37,390 nucleotides of DNA, taken from IMG/VR virus record IMGVR_UViG_3300027752_000048, positions 1-37,390 of that record; one strand, 5' to 3'. Both the position numbers and the translations under genes were made by a program. Origin of the DNA: a virus. Shown here one piece after another: positions 2,790 to 33,980 of the stretch; position 1 is the first letter of the stretch; each line of letters begins with the position of its first letter. The notes below the pieces were generated by a model that saw only the letters and a program-made list of their open reading frames with translations, made no database searches and was not told the origin of the DNA.

Positions 2790-3067
2790 AGTTATTTATT
2801 ATTTTAAGATTAAATGAATATGCTAATGATGGTTACGATTTTGGTGTCATTACAGAAAATAGATGGGAAATGTATGAAAATGATGAAGACATTCGTTTAA
2901 TCACTACAATTGATATTGATATAAATGATTATTCATCATTTCTTGCTATCCAATCTGAAGTATTAGCAGCGAAGCTTATTGAAAAAGCTAAAGTTGATAT
3001 GACAATGACTCTTGAAAAAGTTAAGGATTTTCAATCTAAATTTTTGTTAATTGGAGGCAGCGAATAA
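2786..3067 (+). CDS. Hypothetical acidic early protein (93 aa)
   Basis: An acidic protein beginning MKLFIILRLNEY, with an IDIDINDYSS segment and a lysine-rich helical C-terminus. I recognise no family. ATG 2786 is supported by the run of G at 2774-2778 and by the ATGA overlap with the preceding stop; an in-frame ATG five codons earlier would sit on the ribosome site. Its TAA overlaps the ATG of the annealing-protein gene (TAATG), so translation of the two is probably coupled. Confidence 0.65.
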   Translation: MKLFIILRLNEYANDGYDFGVITENRWEMYENDEDIRLITTIDIDINDYSSFLAIQSEVLAAKLIEKAKVDMTMTLEKVKDFQSKFLLIGGSE

Positions 3068-3822
3068 TGCCACAGTCTGAATCTATTTGGGAAAACCTGA
3101 GCGCGATTGACTGCTCAAAACACGTTGACAAGAAAGGGGGTTTTGATTATCTGGCTTGGACCTGGGCATGGGCTATGGTTAAAGATCATTACCCATTAGC
3201 CAATTACCGTTTAGAACCTGACGTACACTATGCTGACGGCTCAATGGAAGTCAGGGTGACAGTCATTATCGAAGATCAAGAAGCGATTATGTGGTTGCCT
3301 GTATTGAATTTCCGCAATCAAGCCATATCAAACCCCAACTCATTTGATATTAACTCTGCCAGGATGCGATGCTTAGTCAAATGTTGCGCTGTTGGATTTG
3401 GTTTAGGTCATTACATTTATGCAGGTGAATCAGCACCATCAGCACCAGTTGAAGAAACTTTCACGCCTGCGCAACTGGCATCATTCAATATGATGGTAGC
3501 AAACGGTGACGGCTGGGCAATCAAGCGGTTTGGCAAGGCATTAAAAGATGCTAATCAGCAGCACATTATGGATGATTTATTTAACTCTGCTCCCAAAGGC
3601 CAGATAACAGCCCTCAAGAGCAAAGTAAGAGAACTGGTACAATCAGCCAACTCTGAACTTAAAACGATTGTGGCGGCCTTGCAGGAGGCCATAGCGAATA
3701 ATTCAGGTGATTCTATTGAAGAAATCTATAATGAACTTGATCCTGAGAATATAGACATAGTAAATGCTGGTATGACCGAGATTGAGCATATTCAAATGAA
3801 AAAACTGACTGAGGAGGCGTGA
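3067..3822 (+). CDS. Single-strand DNA annealing protein, Sak3/DUF1071-like (251 aa)
   Basis: The N-terminal 120 residues carry the DUF1071 (Sak3-type) signature: IWENLSAIDCSKHVDKKGG, FDYLAWTWAWAMVKDHYP, LPVLNFRNQAI, and the FDINSARMRCLVKC-x-GLGHYIYAGE block. Proteins of this family are Red-beta/RAD52-superfamily recombinases that anneal complementary single strands during phage recombination and replication. The C-terminal 120 residues are helical, variable and probably mediate SSB or partner contacts. It is two genes upstream of an SSB gene. No partner exonuclease is recognisable nearby. Its TGA overlaps the next ATG (ATGA). Confidence 0.85.
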   Translation: MPQSESIWENLSAIDCSKHVDKKGGFDYLAWTWAWAMVKDHYPLANYRLEPDVHYADGSMEVRVTVIIEDQEAIMWLPVLNFRNQAISNPNSFDINSARMRCLVKCCAVGFGLGHYIYAGESAPSAPVEETFTPAQLASFNMMVANGDGWAIKRFGKALKDANQQHIMDDLFNSAPKGQITALKSKVRELVQSANSELKTIVAALQEAIANNSGDSIEEIYNELDPENIDIVNAGMTEIEHIQMKKLTEEA

Positions 3823-21149: not shown

Positions 21150-21344
21150 TTAATCATCTAGCGGAAACTCAGCATACTGCTCTGGAAATTGCTCTCTATG
21201 AGCCGCTTTCATCACCTCTGGATCAGGAAATGGGCCTTCAACAACTGCATCATCTCTATAAGAGACAATCGTTATGCCTTCTTCAAGCTCAAACAATGCT
21301 GAGTTAATAATCCAATTCCCGCTAGTTTTTGTGAGTATGCTCAT
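21150..21344 (-). CDS. Small hypothetical protein after the LRR decoration gene (64 aa)
   Basis: A compact acidic protein (ILTKTSGNWIINSALFELEEGITIVSYRD... ending EQYAEFPLDD). I do not recognise it. Its ATG overlaps the stop of the LRR-containing gene by four bases, so it is translationally coupled to it. It may be a chaperone or partner of the neighbouring capsid-surface or spike proteins, but only position supports this. Confidence 0.6.
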   Translation of the reverse strand: MSILTKTSGNWIINSALFELEEGITIVSYRDDAVVEGPFPDPEVMKAAHREQFPEQYAEFPLDD

Positions 21345-22744
21345 GGTGTAACTCCGTCTTGGACAGTCCAGCCATATGTATTAATTAAATTTTGTTTTGC
21401 TGTATCTGCTGTACCGCCTAAAGTAAGAATGCTAGTTCCAAATGTTGGCGTCATAGCTGGAATGCCTGATGCTTGCGCTTCCCAGTTGACTAGCAAGTTG
21501 TCGTACTGGGCGGTAGTCATCTTACCGACAGTGAGGAAGTTGATGAGGTCGTTAGTGCTGTTAAGCCCTGTGATAGCCCAATCCTCTACGCCAACTATGC
21601 TGGTTAATACAATGCACTGTCGGAACATATTACCCATATTATTTACGAGTGATGTATTAAACGTAGATACGTCTATGCTTGTTAATCCAGAGCAATCGTA
21701 GAACATATAAGACATATTCAATACTTTTGATGTATTAAAGCTAGATACATTAATACTTGTTAATCCACTACAGCCAAAAAACATAGCGTCTGTATTTATT
21801 ACACTGGATGTATCAAAGTTCGATACGTCTAAACTAGTTAATAAAGTGCAACTGCGGAACATCTCAGACATAGTCGTTACTGCTGACGTATCTGTTGACC
21901 CCGCGGTAAACTCAGTCAGGTTAGAACATCCTTTAAAAGCAAGATCAAGCCTTGTCCAACCAACAGTACCCAGATTCAATACTTTTTTGAGCTTAGGTGC
22001 TGAAGTGCTATTGTTTAAAAAGATATTCGGAAATGTTCCTGTTATGCTAATAGTATAATCACCTGCGGTATCGTATGGATGCACAAACCCTGTAGGTGAC
22101 GTGATCGTTTCTAGTGGGCTGTTATCACCCCAGTCAACTACGGCATTGAATGTAGCACCCTGAGCAGGTATGGTAATAGACTCACCGTCGACAGTGGTAG
22201 ACCACTCCGATACAAAAGCATCAGGATTATTAGATTCACTAGTAACCCATCCTTCTTCTAGCGTATTTAAGTACGCAGACCCAGTTGTAATGGGCGTAGC
22301 TGTATACACAGGATTTCCATTAACATTTTCAGGATTGCTTCCTGTTGAAATTGCTCCAAAATAAGCAAACACGCGGTTTTGCCCGCCAGAACTTGCTGCT
22401 CCTGCTGGAGAATAAAGAGGTTGCGAAGAATCCCATGTAGTAGCTGTATTGCCAGTACGTTGAACATCAGCATAACAACCTATAGGACAAGCTGTTTGAG
22501 GGGTTCTTGCAGTTGGAGCAACATTATTTTCAGGAATTCCTTGATCTAATAGCGTCCAATTCATGCCAATGCTATTAGCACCTGTAGCTTCTGGCAAAGC
22601 ACCGCCATCGACATTAATGCCTATGCCAATGTTTTTGCCAGCACCAGGATTAACTCCGTTATACCATTCAGCATTAGGTGTTCTAGCTCTTGCTAAATCA
22701 CCTCCCTGCGAAACAGACGGATAATAAAATGTTCCGTTAGGCAT
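21341..22744 (-). CDS. Capsid-associated protein fused to PKD-like and BspA-type LRR modules (467 aa)
   Basis: Residues 1-175 are homologous to the neighbouring 176-aa protein (GIGMNWTLLDQ, ARTPQ, TATTWDSSQPLYSP, SSGG). Then comes a PKD-like beta domain (about 185-250: TFNAVVDWGDNSPLETITSP, VHPYDTAGDYTISITG). Residues about 260-375 are BspA/DUF285-type leucine-rich repeats of about 24 residues: MFRSCTLLTSLDVSNFDTSS, MFFGCSGLTSINVSSFNTSK, MFYDCSGLTSIDVSTFNTS. A C-terminal cap ends GWTVQDGVTP. Ig/PKD and LRR modules on virion surfaces typically provide weak adhesion to glycans or mucus. Its place straight after capsid suggests a head-decoration or capsid-fibre role. Confidence 0.75.
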   Translation of the reverse strand: MPNGTFYYPSVSQGGDLARARTPNAEWYNGVNPGAGKNIGIGINVDGGALPEATGANSIGMNWTLLDQGIPENNVAPTARTPQTACPIGCYADVQRTGNTATTWDSSQPLYSPAGAASSGGQNRVFAYFGAISTGSNPENVNGNPVYTATPITTGSAYLNTLEEGWVTSESNNPDAFVSEWSTTVDGESITIPAQGATFNAVVDWGDNSPLETITSPTGFVHPYDTAGDYTISITGTFPNIFLNNSTSAPKLKKVLNLGTVGWTRLDLAFKGCSNLTEFTAGSTDTSAVTTMSEMFRSCTLLTSLDVSNFDTSSVINTDAMFFGCSGLTSINVSSFNTSKVLNMSYMFYDCSGLTSIDVSTFNTSLVNNMGNMFRQCIVLTSIVGVEDWAITGLNSTNDLINFLTVGKMTTAQYDNLLVNWEAQASGIPAMTPTFGTSILTLGGTADTAKQNLINTYGWTVQDGVTP

Positions 22745-23294: not shown

Positions 23295-23347
23295 AAAAAG
23301 AGGGGTATTTAGCCCCTAAAGAACAGGAAAGGGCAGATGCCCCTTCC
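23295..23347 (-). terminator. Leftward terminator after the capsid gene, with a second hairpin upstream
   Basis: On the minus strand a hairpin with AGGGG/CCCCT arms (23301-23317) is followed by a U-run (23295-23300), and a second, longer hairpin (23326-23347, GGAAGGGGC/GCCCTTTCC with one mismatch) lies just upstream. They stand between the capsid stop and the next ribosome site. This is the usual place for an attenuating terminator that sets capsid mRNA in excess over downstream genes. Confidence 0.75.
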
Positions 23348-24340: not shown

Positions 24341-24389
24341 GTGGCTATCTCCTAAGTTAAAAGGTAATAAAGTTAATTACTTTTTATCC

Positions 24390-24464
24390 TGTCGCTTGAA
24401 TGACAAGACACTTAGAAAAACCGCTTGAATGGCCTTTCAGTTGTAAAGCCGCTTGAATGGCTTT
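24390..24464 (-). promoter_or_regulatory. Capsid leader: three hairpins with identical 8-nt loops
   Basis: In the leftward transcript, three successive hairpins each expose the loop ATTCAAGC (plus strand GCTTGAAT at 24394-24401, 24423-24430 and 24451-24458). The stems differ but still pair: AAAGCC/GGCTTT, AAAGGCC/GGTTTTT (two G-U pairs) and TGTC/GACA. The loops are 28-29 nt apart. The G-U pairs of the middle stem form only in the minus-strand RNA, the sense of the late mRNA. The element lies 50 to 125 nt upstream of the capsid start codon. A binding site for a protein or RNA that reads the loop is the simplest explanation. Confidence 0.7.
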
Positions 24465-24530
24465 TTGTTCATGTATCCCTATACAACTCTTTGCATAGCT
24501 AGAGCTGTACAGAGAATATACACCTACTGA

Positions 24531-25517
24531 CTACATCCGTCCAGCATTGTCCCAAGCAGAGTTTAAGGCCGCTTCTACGCTATTAGGTGAGCCGCCTGAC
24601 ATAGAGCCGCCTGAAGTCCCATAAATGCTAGAAGATGCTTTTTGCTTCTTTTGCACTAATTGCTGAGAATTTCGAGCAGACAGAATCTTGGCAATTTGAG
24701 GATGACCTAAACAAGCAGCATTATAGGCTTCTTCCATAGACATATTTCGGCCTCGATTTGCAGACATATCTAGCAAATCAGCCATTTCAGAACGAACATC
24801 ATTATAAAACTCATGTTGAGAACCAAAATTATTTACTTCTCCTGCAATTTGGTTTTGAGCTTGTTGTGCCTGAAACTGTTGCTGTTGTTGAAACTGCTGC
24901 ATTTGCTCTTGATAAGGAGCAACGGCTTGTTGTACTGCTTGCTGAACTTGAGACTGTTGTTGAGATTCCTGAGAAGGAGCCTCCCCTACCAGCATTGAAT
25001 CTAAAGTTCGTATATCTACACCAAATTGTTTAATAATCTGTGCAACTGCTTGAGCTTTTTGTGGGCCTGAACCCATTTGAAGCTGAGAAGCTGTTTGAAG
25101 AAGTCCTGGAAGCGTGTTTCCTGCACCTCCATTCATGGCAAACAACTGAGCATAAGGAGCCAATGATCTGTCCATAGATTCAGCGCGTTTAGCGTTAGCA
25201 CCAAACTTTTGAGCCAATCCTTCCATTCTTTGTTCGTTACGAGCTATATGTTCTTTAATTGCAGTAGGCGTATTAGCCCATTCTTCTCTGGCTTCAGGAG
25301 ACAGCCCAGCAGGAGATTGATCTAATTCGTTGACAACTGGCTCTAAGCTCTCAGTTTCAGACTGTACTTCTACTTCTGGCTCTTGTGGAGCTTCAAACGA
25401 AACTTCTTCAACTTCTTCGCTTTCAGCACTGTCCCAAGCAGCAGCTAATTCAGCATTAATATCATCTGAAGGTTCTTCGATTTCTACTTCTTCTGTTACT
25501 TCATTTTCATCAATCAT
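24531..25517 (-). CDS. Scaffolding protein (328 aa)
   Basis: The protein has a strongly acidic N-terminus (about 1-65, many Glu/Asp), a helical middle with a long Gln-rich coiled coil (about 190-235) and a shorter basic and Ser/Gly-rich C-terminus ending ALNSAWDNAGRM, which echoes AELAAAWDSAES near the N-terminus. Acidic helical composition and location directly before the capsid gene are typical of podoviral scaffolds, which guide procapsid assembly and are then released. The final basic/helical segment is where scaffolds usually bind capsid protein. Confidence 0.8.
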   Translation of the reverse strand: MIDENEVTEEVEIEEPSDDINAELAAAWDSAESEEVEEVSFEAPQEPEVEVQSETESLEPVVNELDQSPAGLSPEAREEWANTPTAIKEHIARNEQRMEGLAQKFGANAKRAESMDRSLAPYAQLFAMNGGAGNTLPGLLQTASQLQMGSGPQKAQAVAQIIKQFGVDIRTLDSMLVGEAPSQESQQQSQVQQAVQQAVAPYQEQMQQFQQQQQFQAQQAQNQIAGEVNNFGSQHEFYNDVRSEMADLLDMSANRGRNMSMEEAYNAACLGHPQIAKILSARNSQQLVQKKQKASSSIYGTSGGSMSGGSPNSVEAALNSAWDNAGRM

Positions 25518-25518
25518 T

Positions 25519-25848
25519 TTAGTTCGCCCTTTCTGCTCTAATTATAGTCTCGTAGATTTCCTGTTTACGAGCCTGTGTCTCCTGTAACGTATGCTCGCCA
25601 CTAAGGATTCGTTGTCGTTCAGCCTGTTGTTTTTTTACTGTGGCTGAATCAAATTCTGCGCTGTGTACAACATTATTCTTTGCGTTATGATTACGCAAAG
25701 ATTTAGCATCGGTAATAATGCTGCCATCTACAGGGCTGACATAGGGTTCGTGAAACCCATGTATACTATGGCTAACCGTTTGAGGACGGTAATAGCTGTC
25801 AGCAGGAACAAGTTTGTGTGTTACTGGGTCTTGTATGTAACGCGCCAT
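25519..25848 (-). CDS. Small conserved protein between portal block and scaffold (109 aa)
   Basis: The N-terminal half has ARYIQDPVTHKLVPADSYYRP and PYVSPVDGSIITDAKSLRNHN, a pattern I have seen in short proteins next to capsid/scaffold genes of podoviruses; the C-terminal half is a charged helix (VKKQQAERQRIL...). The function is not known. It ends one base before the scaffold ATG and starts nine bases after the ParB-fold gene, so it belongs to the head assembly operon. Confidence 0.65.
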   Translation of the reverse strand: MARYIQDPVTHKLVPADSYYRPQTVSHSIHGFHEPYVSPVDGSIITDAKSLRNHNAKNNVVHSAEFDSATVKKQQAERQRILSGEHTLQETQARKQEIYETIIRAERAN

Positions 25849-26696: not shown

Positions 26697-28907
26697 CTAG
26701 TTTGCTCTATTTCTATTTTGAGCATTAATCTCACTCATTTTAAGATTATGCTTATAAGTTTCAGATTCAATGTCATATTCATGGTTTACTTCTTGAGAAG
26801 CAATATCAAAACGAGCTTGAGCTTCCTCTACCGTAATATTGGCATTCATAGTTGCTTGTATCTCGGCTAAAGACGATTCCATTTCTCTGGCTATTTCCAT
26901 TAACCTTATTTGAGACTGAGATTCAGCAATTGTCTGATCTTTCTCGGCATCAACCTGCATTTTGTAAATCTCGCCTTGAATTTTGGCTTGATGGGTCTGC
27001 ATATCAGCTTGTGCTTTAGTCTGAATTTTAACCAGTTCAGCTTGTTGTTTTTGTTGCGCTCCTTGCAACTTTATTTGTTCAATTTGCATTCTCAATTCTT
27101 CTGGGCTTGGCTCTTTAGGCTTATCACCGCCTTGAGGTGCTTTCTTAGCTTTATCAATAGCTTGATCTAAAGTGCCTTCCAGATACTCTGCGCCTTTATA
27201 GGCAGCAAGGCTCCACTTCATCAGTTCCATTAAAATAGGCAATGATCCTGGAATAGCTTCTGCCGCCCCAGAGGCTGCTTGAATGTATTGAGACATAGCC
27301 ATAATGTACTCTGACCGTTCTGATTGCATTTGAGCGTAATCAATCATTGCAATAGATTCAGGACGAATATTTACGCGCCAATTCACTTCTTTGCTTTGCA
27401 TTAAATCAATAGCAGGGGCTACTAATGGTTTATCGAACTCAGGCAAAAACCCTGCGTTTGATTGAGAGACAATACTTTCTTTGCTGTAATGTTTAGAAAT
27501 AACTTCCGCTTTAAGACCTTCAAGATCAGCCGCAAACCGAGCAAAATCTTCTTGCAAAGCTTGAATCCCAATACTGCCCATCTTGGCTTTAATGGCTTGA
27601 GTGCCGCCAGAAGTATACTGGTCAGTATTGCCGCCACGCATAATGTCGCTCATGCCTGTTATTTCATACAATTGCTCTGTTTTGGCTTGCTGTACAGCCT
27701 GTAAAGTCTGAATAACGCCTACAATTTCTTGAACAGGAAACCATTGTATTACACCCTGTAAACCGCCTTTCTCAGCAAACATAGCCCAGTTATCTACAGG
27801 TATAAGATCGTTTTCTATGCCTTCTTTAAGCATACGCCCAGCAGAATCTCCAGCAGACTTGTCATATACGCCTACTACTTTAATAGCGCGAGTAATTGTA
27901 GCTATACGACTTTGAAGTTCATCAATTTCATTGTACAAATCTTGAGCAAAAAGAAAATCTGCTTTAGGGACAAACATTGTTGTCGTTGGGTTTGCAAGCA
28001 TAGGACGGGGCATAGGCCAAAAACCAGACAATCCAAGAGGGTCATCTTGCATATCAAGGATCAAATCAGCTCCTTGAGAGTACCAATACACCTTTTTATT
28101 CTTTTTTTCCCAAATTTCCCAAATTTCAGCCTTTTGGATGTTGTCTTTTTGCTCCGAATCGCTGCTGCCAGAGAATTTGTCATCTCCACTGCTTGTTTGG
28201 TGCTTATATTCAATATCTTTAGCTATGTCTGCGCCAAATCGCTCGCTAACCTCTGATTTTGTCATCCAACTGCGAAATCCCCACCAAGGAATCTCTTTCC
28301 ACGTTCTGCCCCAGCCCCAACATACGTCTTGCCAGTGAATGTAGTCTATACAAGCTTTTTCATGGTCTAAAACTTCTATTTCTTCCATTTCCATTGTTTG
28401 AGGGTTTAAAACTTGTTCTCTTTTGGTTTTCATGTGATAACGGACGCGAGCAGTACCCATTCCTGGCAACAATCTGTCTTGAAGTGACGCTTTTAAAATA
28501 GTAGATAAGTCTTCTCCGCTAGGCTCTATGTCAGATTGAAGAATACGCTGAAACATAAGGGCAGCTACGCGAGCAATATCATCATCGGGATCAGAATGCT
28601 CACGACTTACATCAATTTGAGGGGTATTGCCGTAAAGCATCGCCATTGTTGTGCTAATGTTCTTGTGAAAGAGGTTAAGAGTAGCTCCTCCTCTAGAATC
28701 ATCGTAAGCCCCTTGCATATTGCCTTGACGCTCATCAAGATAACGCTCCACAACTTGAACGCCTTGTTTTTTATATCGTCTTAATCGTTTTTCACAGGCA
28801 TCCATTTCTTTTTGCCAATGTTGATGCCATTGCGTTGGAGACTTCTCTTTTTTAAGAGGAGTCATCTCAACAACAGTTGTTTCTTCTATATCAATATCAA
28901 TATCCAC
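26697..28907 (-). CDS. Portal protein (736 aa)
   Basis: A large protein with motifs of podoviral portals: NLFHKNISTTMAMLYGNTPQ, LPGMGTARVRYHM, DYIHWQDVCWGWGRTWKEI, FLFAQDLYNEIDELQSRIATI and YEITGMSDIMRG, followed by a long C-terminal Gln/Glu-rich coiled coil (about 600-736) compatible with a barrel. It forms the dodecameric DNA gate at one vertex. The GTG at 28907 is chosen because AAGGA lies seven bases upstream and it begins VDIDIDIEE; the longer frame would run 47 bases into the preceding gene. Confidence 0.85.
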   Translation of the reverse strand: MDIDIDIEETTVVEMTPLKKEKSPTQWHQHWQKEMDACEKRLRRYKKQGVQVVERYLDERQGNMQGAYDDSRGGATLNLFHKNISTTMAMLYGNTPQIDVSREHSDPDDDIARVAALMFQRILQSDIEPSGEDLSTILKASLQDRLLPGMGTARVRYHMKTKREQVLNPQTMEMEEIEVLDHEKACIDYIHWQDVCWGWGRTWKEIPWWGFRSWMTKSEVSERFGADIAKDIEYKHQTSSGDDKFSGSSDSEQKDNIQKAEIWEIWEKKNKKVYWYSQGADLILDMQDDPLGLSGFWPMPRPMLANPTTTMFVPKADFLFAQDLYNEIDELQSRIATITRAIKVVGVYDKSAGDSAGRMLKEGIENDLIPVDNWAMFAEKGGLQGVIQWFPVQEIVGVIQTLQAVQQAKTEQLYEITGMSDIMRGGNTDQYTSGGTQAIKAKMGSIGIQALQEDFARFAADLEGLKAEVISKHYSKESIVSQSNAGFLPEFDKPLVAPAIDLMQSKEVNWRVNIRPESIAMIDYAQMQSERSEYIMAMSQYIQAASGAAEAIPGSLPILMELMKWSLAAYKGAEYLEGTLDQAIDKAKKAPQGGDKPKEPSPEELRMQIEQIKLQGAQQKQQAELVKIQTKAQADMQTHQAKIQGEIYKMQVDAEKDQTIAESQSQIRLMEIAREMESSLAEIQATMNANITVEEAQARFDIASQEVNHEYDIESETYKHNLKMSEINAQNRNRAN

Positions 28908-29322
28908 TAGGTAGTCCTTGTGGCTGATTAGTTTGAGGAACACTTGCTGACATTGTTGCTCTTGGCATTATTGATTGAGGCGCAGAATTCATAGTAGAAC
29001 CTGTCATTGGCGGCCCTGAAGGCCCAGACTGTGCTTGCGGCATTCCTTGTTGACGCATTGCTTGTGCTTGCATCATTTGAGCTTTCATTGGATCAACTAA
29101 AGGTGGCTGCTCATACGGCTGTGGTGGCATCTGCCCCATTTGAGATGGTCCAGGCATCATGCTTCCATCAGGCATCATGTGCATAGGCGGCTCGCCCATT
29201 GGAGGCTGCTGAGGTGGCGGCTGCATAGGTGGCTGCATAGGTGGCTGCTGAAGTGGCTGCATGGGTGGCTGCATGGGCGGTTGGCCCATTGGAGGCATTC
29301 CTTGTGGGGGCATTCCTTTCAT
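28897..29322 (-). CDS. Low-complexity Pro/Met/Gln-rich protein (141 aa)
   Basis: Almost the whole chain is built from Pro, Met, Gln and Gly, with tandem PPMQ-type repeats in residues 10-45 and many MPP or QPP steps after that; there is hardly any hydrophobic core, so the protein should be disordered. It has AGGA seven bases before the ATG and sits between terminase and portal, overlapping the portal start by 11 bases. The repeat is also visible in the DNA (29190-29285). It could be a flexible linker or clamp in the packaging machinery or a virion-filling protein; no homologous function is known to me. Confidence 0.65.
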   Translation of the reverse strand: MKGMPPQGMPPMGQPPMQPPMQPLQQPPMQPPMQPPPQQPPMGEPPMHMMPDGSMMPGPSQMGQMPPQPYEQPPLVDPMKAQMMQAQAMRQQGMPQAQSGPSGPPMTGSTMNSAPQSIMPRATMSASVPQTNQPQGLPSGY

Positions 29323-31748: not shown

Positions 31749-31873
31749 AACGCTATCTGGAGAATACCGAAAAGTCTAATAGAGAAAATGACGGGAAAAA
31801 ATAATGAAAAATATATGGATGAGGGTTTATATAAATATAACAACTCGTTTCAGAAAGACCCCGACCCCTTCTG

Positions 31874-32009
31874 TCGCCAAAAGCTACATGTCGCCAGGAG
31901 CTACACGTAGTCATCGGTTACATGTCGCCAGGAGCTACATGTCGTCAGATGCTACACGTCGTCAAAAGCTACACGTAGTCAGGTTAGACATGTCGTCATA
32001 AGCTACAGA
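31874..32009. repeat. Array of eight 17-bp direct repeats (iteron-like)
   Basis: Eight units of exactly 17 bp follow one another without gaps, consensus TCGTCARRAGCTACAYG. Positions 1 T, 3 G, 5 C, 6 A and 13-15 ACA are invariant. Units 3 and 7 are the most divergent and both start TAGTCA, so units 1-4 and 5-8 look like two copies of a 68-bp block; units 1, 2 and 4 have C at position 4 while units 5, 6 and 8 have T. Seventeen is not a codon multiple and the units are not palindromes. Flanking DNA on both sides is AT-rich. This is the architecture of an iteron origin or a multi-site operator. Confidence 0.85.
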
Positions 32010-32976: not shown

Positions 32977-33102
32977 ATGAGCAATCTACCCGAGCCAACA
33001 CAATCGCAAGGTGATTTATGGGATCGATACTGCGTTTACGTAGCATGCGTACAAGGCAGCGGCGAGCACGTTAAATCTTTCGAGGAGTGGTTAGAATCAT
33101 GA
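32977..33102 (+). CDS. Small acidic protein upstream of the GP88-like gene (41 aa)
   Basis: A 41-residue frame from ATG 32977, after an AGGAG at 32963-32967: SNLPEPTQSQGDLWDRYCVY then ACVQGSGEHVKSFEEWLES. It is acidic with two Cys and ends in an ATGA overlap with the GP88-like gene, suggesting a coupled partner or leader. No family recognised. Confidence 0.55.
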   Translation: MSNLPEPTQSQGDLWDRYCVYVACVQGSGEHVKSFEEWLES

Positions 33103-33980
33103 AAATTCAAACACTGGCAAACATCACGCAAGCTATTGGATCGCAAGACTATAAGAAAGCTATAATGGCAATCGATAGCGCACTAATAGGCGAGCACGGC
33201 GCACACTGGCATCGCGATTTCAAAAAGCTTAAAACCTTCCTATTAGATGATAACAGAGCGCCTCTATTTACTATCATCCGAAAGGAAAGCGGCGAGGGTA
33301 AACTTGGCAAGGGCTTTCTATCGTTTTCAGTGTTGCCCGACATTACATGTCCTGGCGCTGGCGATTGCCTGCAGTATTGCTATTCCTTCAAAGCACATCG
33401 ATATCCTGCAGCATACTCAAGGCGAGCCCAAAACACTGTATTAATGCAAACAAAAGCTGGGCGCGCTCAAATCATTGCCGCCATTGATCACTTGGCATCA
33501 AAGCGTACAGGTAACATCGATTTTCGCTTGTATGTCGATGGCGATTTTAGCAGTGGCGGTGACGTAGCGTTCTGGATGACACTGTTAAAAGAGAATGCAT
33601 GGCTTCAAACCTATGGCTACAGTAAATCCTTTCTTGAGCTACTAGGCTATGACGCGGCGCACAATTGGCCTGCTAATTATCTGTTAAACCTATCAGAAGG
33701 TCACAAGCACAATCAGTCTATTGTGGACCTGGTAAGCGCCCTACCAATTTGTCGCGGTTCTTTCGGCGCGATCCTTACAATTGGAAAGCACAAGCCAACA
33801 CAATGGAAAACAAGCGCCTACCGAAAGGACATTCTAGCGCAACACAAGGCCAAGACTGGACGCAAAGCTTTCGTATGTGGTGGTAGGTGCGGCGCTTGTA
33901 TTACTCGCCAGGGTATTAACATGCATGCATGTGGTGACCGTCAATTTGACAATGTCGACATTATTATCGCGGTCCACTAG
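33099..33980 (+). CDS. GP88-like cysteine-rich phage protein (293 aa)
   Basis: FLSFSVLPDITCPGAGDCLQ with C84, C90 and C94, then YCYSFKAHRYPAAYSRRAQN, resembles the N-terminal signature of the mycobacteriophage Gp88-type family, and the C-terminal CGGRCGACI ... HACGDRQ matches its second Cys cluster. The central region (NIDFRLYVDGDFSSGGDVAF, then SKSFLELLGY) has the strand/helix alternation of a TIM-barrel, so a metal- or Fe-S-binding enzyme, possibly radical-SAM-related, is conceivable. The family's function is unknown to me. ATG 33099 overlaps the 41-aa gene. It is followed by a strong terminator, so the pair forms a self-contained cassette. Confidence 0.65.
   Translation: MKIQTLANITQAIGSQDYKKAIMAIDSALIGEHGAHWHRDFKKLKTFLLDDNRAPLFTIIRKESGEGKLGKGFLSFSVLPDITCPGAGDCLQYCYSFKAHRYPAAYSRRAQNTVLMQTKAGRAQIIAAIDHLASKRTGNIDFRLYVDGDFSSGGDVAFWMTLLKENAWLQTYGYSKSFLELLGYDAAHNWPANYLLNLSEGHKHNQSIVDLVSALPICRGSFGAILTIGKHKPTQWKTSAYRKDILAQHKAKTGRKAFVCGGRCGACITRQGINMHACGDRQFDNVDIIIAVH

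Follow-up and report, generated by a model that had tools for sequence, protein, structure and literature searches.

In tailed phages the capsid protein is needed far above the other structural proteins and in the right ratio to scaffold, and to our knowledge little is known about how its amount is set at the level of the mRNA. Small RNA hairpins with a conserved loop and a freer stem lie beside a capsid-related gene in the coat-protein operators of MS2 and PP7. The lambdoid put and nut antitermination RNAs consist of paired hairpins with conserved unpaired bases just past the promoter, and act on RNA polymerase in early transcripts. The gp43 and gp32 genes of T4 have autogenous translational operators, in which a leader hairpin or pseudoknot is located 40-67 nt upstream of the start codon; in the gp43 operator, conserved loop bases are recognised (PMC3014915). 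The pan motif and other candidates for tandem protein-binding hairpins are simple conserved hairpins of the 5' leader, suggestive of a dimeric protein (PMC2864571).

The stretch of viral DNA analyzed here (the window) is 37,390 nucleotides long (IMG/VR record IMGVR_UViG_3300027752_000048, positions 1 to 37,390) and encodes a capsid protein of the Mx8/BUCT555 type. Its capsid leader (minus strand, mRNA sense) carries three hairpins with the loop ATTCAAGC, 50-125 nt upstream of the capsid gene. The leader is a real conserved RNA element and is best read as a capsid translational switch with exchangeable recognition hairpins. As in the T4 operators, a hairpin in a phage mRNA leader is predicted to control translation of one gene, but here three hairpins stand in tandem, a hairpin arm is the anti-Shine-Dalgarno (anti-SD) sequence, the gene is that of the major capsid protein, and close relatives differ by exchange of the hairpin type with the product nearly unchanged. 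The small hairpin, conserved loop, freer stem and capsid-related gene are shared with the MS2 and PP7 operators, whereas this phage has a double-stranded DNA genome, its hairpin type is not tied to the capsid protein, and stabilization of hairpin 2 would expose the SD rather than mask it. Translational riboswitches likewise have two exclusive folds, one masking the SD, and a recognition hairpin with a shared arm; unlike them, this leader has no visible small-molecule pocket, and its repeated identical loops suggest a protein. A small-molecule riboswitch was rejected, as no Rfam family reached gathering score and the conserved part is the 8-nt loop only. Simple conserved tandem hairpins in a 5' leader are also the form of pan, although there is no sequence relation, the genes differ, and no anti-SD role is described for pan (PMC2864571). 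The conserved unpaired bases of hairpins that follow closely on a (putative) promoter recall put and nut; the coevolving partner here, in contrast, is the SD of the next gene.

The 8-nt loop was identical in all three hairpins (minus-strand sites 24458-24451, 24430-24423 and 24401-24394; spacings of 28 and 29 nt), each on its own paired stem (Table 1). An earlier note, made by reading the sequence, had described this arrangement, and it was confirmed. When the whole window was scanned for hairpins with the same loop and a stem of at least 6 bp, the capsid-leader triple was the only triple on the mRNA strand, while no triple and no nearby pair of same-loop hairpins arose in 60 shuffles of the full sequence that preserved its dinucleotides. 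The loop 8-mer by itself is not rare (6 copies in the window vs. 2.86 expected); the tandem same-loop arrangement is real and not a product of chance. The extent given in the earlier note, 24390-24464, had the site right but fell short of the third hairpin, which reaches 24385. No Rfam family was matched at gathering score in the window or in the loci of 15 relatives, and a tRNA-like element was sought and not found. A leader-peptide ORF across hairpin 1 (M-N-K-K-P-F-K-R-L-Y-N in the window, read by eye) was not retained, since its start codon is missing from L003 and L004.

Table 1. Features of the capsid transcription unit in the window and of the genes next to it.
Feature	Position	Strand	Basis or remark
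Two terminator-like hairpins immediately 3' of capsid gene	23301..23347	-	Several relatives also have hairpins here
Major capsid protein gene, 325 aa	23363..24340	-	phrog_9953 major head protein, E 3.6e-109
SD region ACTTAGGAGATAGCC, anti-SD target	24343..24357	-	Complementarity to anti-SD
Hairpin 3	24385..24410	-	TGTCTTGTC-ATTCAAGC-GACAGGATA, 9 bp, two G-U; covariance model 30.3 bits
Anti-SD GGTTTTTCTAAGTG	24409..24422	-	3' arm of hairpin 2 and following bases; best SD complement of the leader in 13/13 leaders tested
Hairpin 2 (switch hairpin)	24415..24438	-	GAAAGGCC-ATTCAAGC-GGTTTTTC, 8 bp, two G-U; covariance model 31.4 bits
Hairpin 1	24445..24464	-	AAAGCC-ATTCAAGC-GGCTTT, 6 bp stem; covariance model 33.3 bits
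Possible 5'-terminal hairpin CTCTGTACAG...TTGTATAGGG	24477..24514	-	Direct sequence reading; window clade only
Putative -10-like hexamer TATATT	24515..24520	-	Consensus match
-35-like hexamer TGGACG, in last codons of scaffold gene	24538..24543	-	Consensus match only
Probable scaffold protein of 328 aa, predicted as mainly long helices	24531..25517	-	Position directly upstream; helical model; no PHROG
109-aa protein between portal and scaffold (Mx8 p46 position)	25519..25848	-	No Pfam or PHROG hit

A sigma-70-like promoter (consensus match) lies over the scaffold stop codon, from which the capsid transcript would be expected to start at about 24510-24514. The same spacing, TGGACG-17 nt-TATATT/TACATT, was found by eye in L237, L238 and L239. 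The promoter and terminator matches would agree with a capsid transcription unit served by a separate promoter, leader and terminator.

For comparison, 127 distinct capsid leaders were gathered from capsid searches and pattern scans of a viral contig collection. Leaders bearing ANUCAMGC hairpins were designated type A (14/127, the window and 13 further distinct leaders). The loop consensus was A-N-U-C-A-M-G-C, usually closed by a Y-G pair (C-G or U-G). Over 37 distinct related hairpins, paired cells reached 84% vs. 62.5% in shuffles, double-change cells numbered 74 vs. 22.9, and the covariation score was 0.67 vs. 0.26, with no slid register near it. The structural covariation and the capsid-leader position proposed in the earlier note thus held in the 13 further leaders. 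So did the conserved loop, but the proposal that the stems serve for pairing only did not stand for hairpin 2, whose 3' arm is also the anti-SD. At the paired positions G-U outnumbered A-C by 33 to 15, which supports the mRNA strand as the RNA sense; G-U pairs in the middle stem had suggested this strand before, although hairpin 3 contains them too.

The type-A element was confined to capsid leaders. A covariance model run on 408 kb (the window and related records) gave 21 matches at E<0.03, all in capsid leaders, and the next score was 14.6 bits. When 2.9 million viral contigs were scanned for three loops in tandem, 13 contigs had the copies in stems, and in 13/13 of these a capsid gene followed on the same strand, immediately downstream or past one inserted ORF; the other 49 contigs had neither stems nor a downstream capsid gene. 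A two-copy scan added 56 new loci, where the stem-bearing sites off capsid leaders were one repeat common to L192 and L232 only; one of the loci, L190, is the L006 leader with the capsid gene beyond the fragment end. Spread of the element to other genes was not seen in the records covered by the pattern scan and the covariance model. Among prophages of named hosts in a genome collection, five distant loci were retrieved, and type-A hairpins were seen by eye in 0/5. The leader of L011 is separated from the capsid gene by an inserted ORF (distance 394 nt); this insert (L160:1732-2052) encodes 106 aa, includes CxxC and histidine motifs that look HNH-like by eye, and had no Pfam hit.

The 3' arm of hairpin 2 differs from those of its neighbors in what else it can pair with. 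Averaged across 14 leaders, the predicted duplex between the SD region and the 18 nt that follow loop 2 had an energy of -16.7 kcal/mol, vs. -6.8 kcal/mol and -6.2 kcal/mol for the matching sites after loops 1 and 3. The anti-SD site was unbeaten by any outside 20-mer of the same leader in 13/13 leaders tested (L238 was excluded because an inserted ORF displaces its hairpins), and it co-varied with the SD class (mean of -16.2 kcal/mol within its own class, -10.5 with the other). Because this arm is both anti-SD and part of hairpin 2, hairpin 2 and masking of the SD are mutually exclusive. Two marks of a translational leader switch were found here, namely an anti-SD that is complementary to the SD and coevolves with it, and pairing of this anti-SD in an exclusive alternative hairpin. 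The predicted probability of SD-leader pairing was 0.55 in type A vs. 0.23 in dinucleotide shuffles, and 0.68 vs. 0.36 in 112 other relatives. For the window alone it was 0.15, no higher than in shuffles, so the case for a switch rests on comparison across relatives. Constrained folding gave two near-balanced states, of which the masked state was in most leaders the more stable, by 1-5 kcal/mol (window, 2.5 kcal/mol; 8 and 12 kcal/mol in two leaders). L237 slightly favored the ON state, and in L375 the anti-SD was not used in the constrained OFF fold. In the window, hairpins 1 and 3 were predicted to persist in both states. By comparison across relatives, the two-fold design predicted for the leader is well supported.

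We consider it probable, from sequence comparison and folding models, that the capsid mRNA 5' leader is a translational switch in which a loop-binding factor stabilizes hairpin 2 and so enables capsid translation. The masked fold, with anti-SD and SD paired, would be the OFF state, and hairpin 2, which is transcribed first, would be the anti-masking (ON) fold. A factor that recognizes the loops of the tandem hairpins would stabilize hairpin 2, and capsid translation would be switched or held on; the direction of control (ON by binding) is one that we infer from energy models. The order of transcription could also serve a switch that needs no ligand, in which hairpin 2 forms ahead of the SD and leaves it free until the mRNA rearranges into the masked fold, so that capsid would be made in a timed burst. 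The two folds are close in energy, and control of SD access by metastable hairpins in leaders is established in other systems (PMC6733600), but a ligand-free switch leaves unexplained why the same loop is kept across phages in hairpins 1 and 3, which are poor SD pairers, and we regard it as unlikely.

Other roles for 5' hairpins were weighed against the same pairing data. Protection of a plentiful mRNA, its hairpin loops being kept so as to attract or avoid a ribonuclease, would suit the place of hairpin 1 near the expected 5' end and the abundance that capsid mRNA must have; yet stability requires neither a loop sequence conserved three times nor coevolution of anti-SD and SD, which makes such a role quite improbable. 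Little can be said either for nascent-RNA antitermination of the put or nut kind, by which the polymerase would be made to read through the post-capsid terminators. The hairpins do begin near the putative promoter, and strong terminator-like hairpins lie 3' of the capsid gene in several relatives, but the coevolution of anti-SD and SD is left unexplained and the records have the hairpins at no other place, so that we give this reading little credence. Transcription attenuation, suggested in the earlier note, was rejected as unsupported because the leader contains no terminator-like site on the mRNA strand.

Leaders without the type-A loop, which the earlier note had named as counting against its reading, occur in more distant relatives and in L007, but there a different recognition hairpin takes its place and the layout is similar. 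Of the 113 non-type-A leaders, about half have a recognition hairpin of another kind, formed by an outer stem, an internal loop with CCA opposite A, and an inner stem. It was represented by 54 distinct copies with many pair types, at 0.55 per leader vs. 0.04 in shuffles, and by 0 copies in type A. The CCA-over-A hairpin, whose internal loop is asymmetric, was seen in L069, L170, L364, L288, L291 and about 50 others, sometimes in tandem and with covarying stems, and had no Rfam match in the loci scanned. The L007 leader has UCGC-type loops (by eye). In the six nearest non-type-A relatives (L246=L007, L255, L244, L245, L331 and L326), the best SD complement was again clearly ahead of the next site, and it started at or just past a leader hairpin's 3' arm. 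Over all CCA/A copies the relation to an anti-SD was weaker (28% in the top tenth), as would be expected if only a single copy in each leader acts as the switch. Predicted SD masking, together with a recognition hairpin next to the anti-SD, recurs in relatives that have a different hairpin. The ANUCAMGC hairpin and the CCA/A internal-loop hairpin are apparently two compact undescribed RNA recognition elements; the type-A element was not reported in the literature searched, with subscription journals mostly outside coverage. A compact leader of this predicted two-state design recurs, with lineage-specific recognition hairpins, among many environmental members of the Mx8/BUCT555 capsid family.

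The DNA of L007 and L009 is ~94% identical across the capsid gene and across 4.8 kb preceding the leader, and their leaders cannot be aligned (UCGC hairpins in L007, type A in L009), although each has an anti-SD to the same SD sequence. On the capsid tree, type-A leaders were scattered. The swap and the scatter together indicate that the hairpin type is a module, independent of the capsid protein, and the leader has the look of an RNA switch that can be exchanged and that would set the amount of capsid made. With at least one clean leader swap between near-identical phages, the switch is directly testable. The same data bear on feedback by the capsid protein, raised in the earlier note, in which this protein would bind the loops and repress its own mRNA as the coat proteins of single-stranded RNA phages do. 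An element found in the capsid leader only, with repeated sites that suit a multimer, would agree with this, but the operator type did not follow the cognate protein: the capsid proteins of L007 and L009 share 97.8% identity, with unrelated hairpins in their leaders, and type-A leaders do not cluster on the capsid tree. Binding that stabilizes hairpin 2 would, moreover, free the SD and not hide it. Capsid feedback was left unsupported because near-identical capsid proteins go with unrelated leader hairpins, and we judge it highly improbable. The gene or genes just downstream of the capsid gene, probably encoding virion surface proteins, were also exchanged (L007 6065-6665 vs. L009 6057-6919). 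Such a gene was rejected as partner of the leader because the window has a different combination, so that it does not track leader type.

The factor sensed by the proposed translational switch is most likely a protein, since several equal sites suit a multimer, and probably not the capsid protein. A small gene exclusive to type-A phages, as for a dedicated regulator, was looked for and none was seen. Between L007 and L009, residue differences were 35/343 in the scaffold and 18/113 in the 109-113-residue protein before it; both exceeded those of portal (9/728), capsid (7/321) and terminase (4/448). Scaffold residue 113 was F/Y in type A and mostly H/N otherwise, with one exception, L022; L020 was counted as type A by eye for this test because of its UUCACGC-like loop. 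Across L007/L009 it was the sole homogeneous column tracking leader type among 2839 columns of nine proteins, a post hoc observation, and the mean signal across all scaffold differences was weak. No solved structure was matched to the scaffold protein by sequence or fold, and its model consists of long helices. The scaffold protein may thus be taken as the best single lead for a leader-binding factor, though a weak one. More tentatively, and with rather less than even confidence, an exchangeable protein-sensing switch might match capsid synthesis to how much scaffold, or some other assembly factor, is available, with its hairpins swapped as modules between near-identical phages and the sensing protein co-adapting; we hold this to be doubtful, if conceivable.

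Several other features of the window were recorded. A 12-nt tandem repeat (GGCTGCATAGGT) occupies 29197-29318, inside or beside the ORF at 28897-29322, and a 17/34-nt tandem repeat array, possibly non-coding, lies at 31873-32007. By Pfam, 3067-3822 encodes a Sak-type single-strand annealing protein and 33087-33980 a protein of the GP88 family. The 467-aa protein encoded at 21341-22744 contains a repeated segment, NTSxVxxMSxMFxxCxxLTS, and among the compared phages occurred in the closest relatives only.
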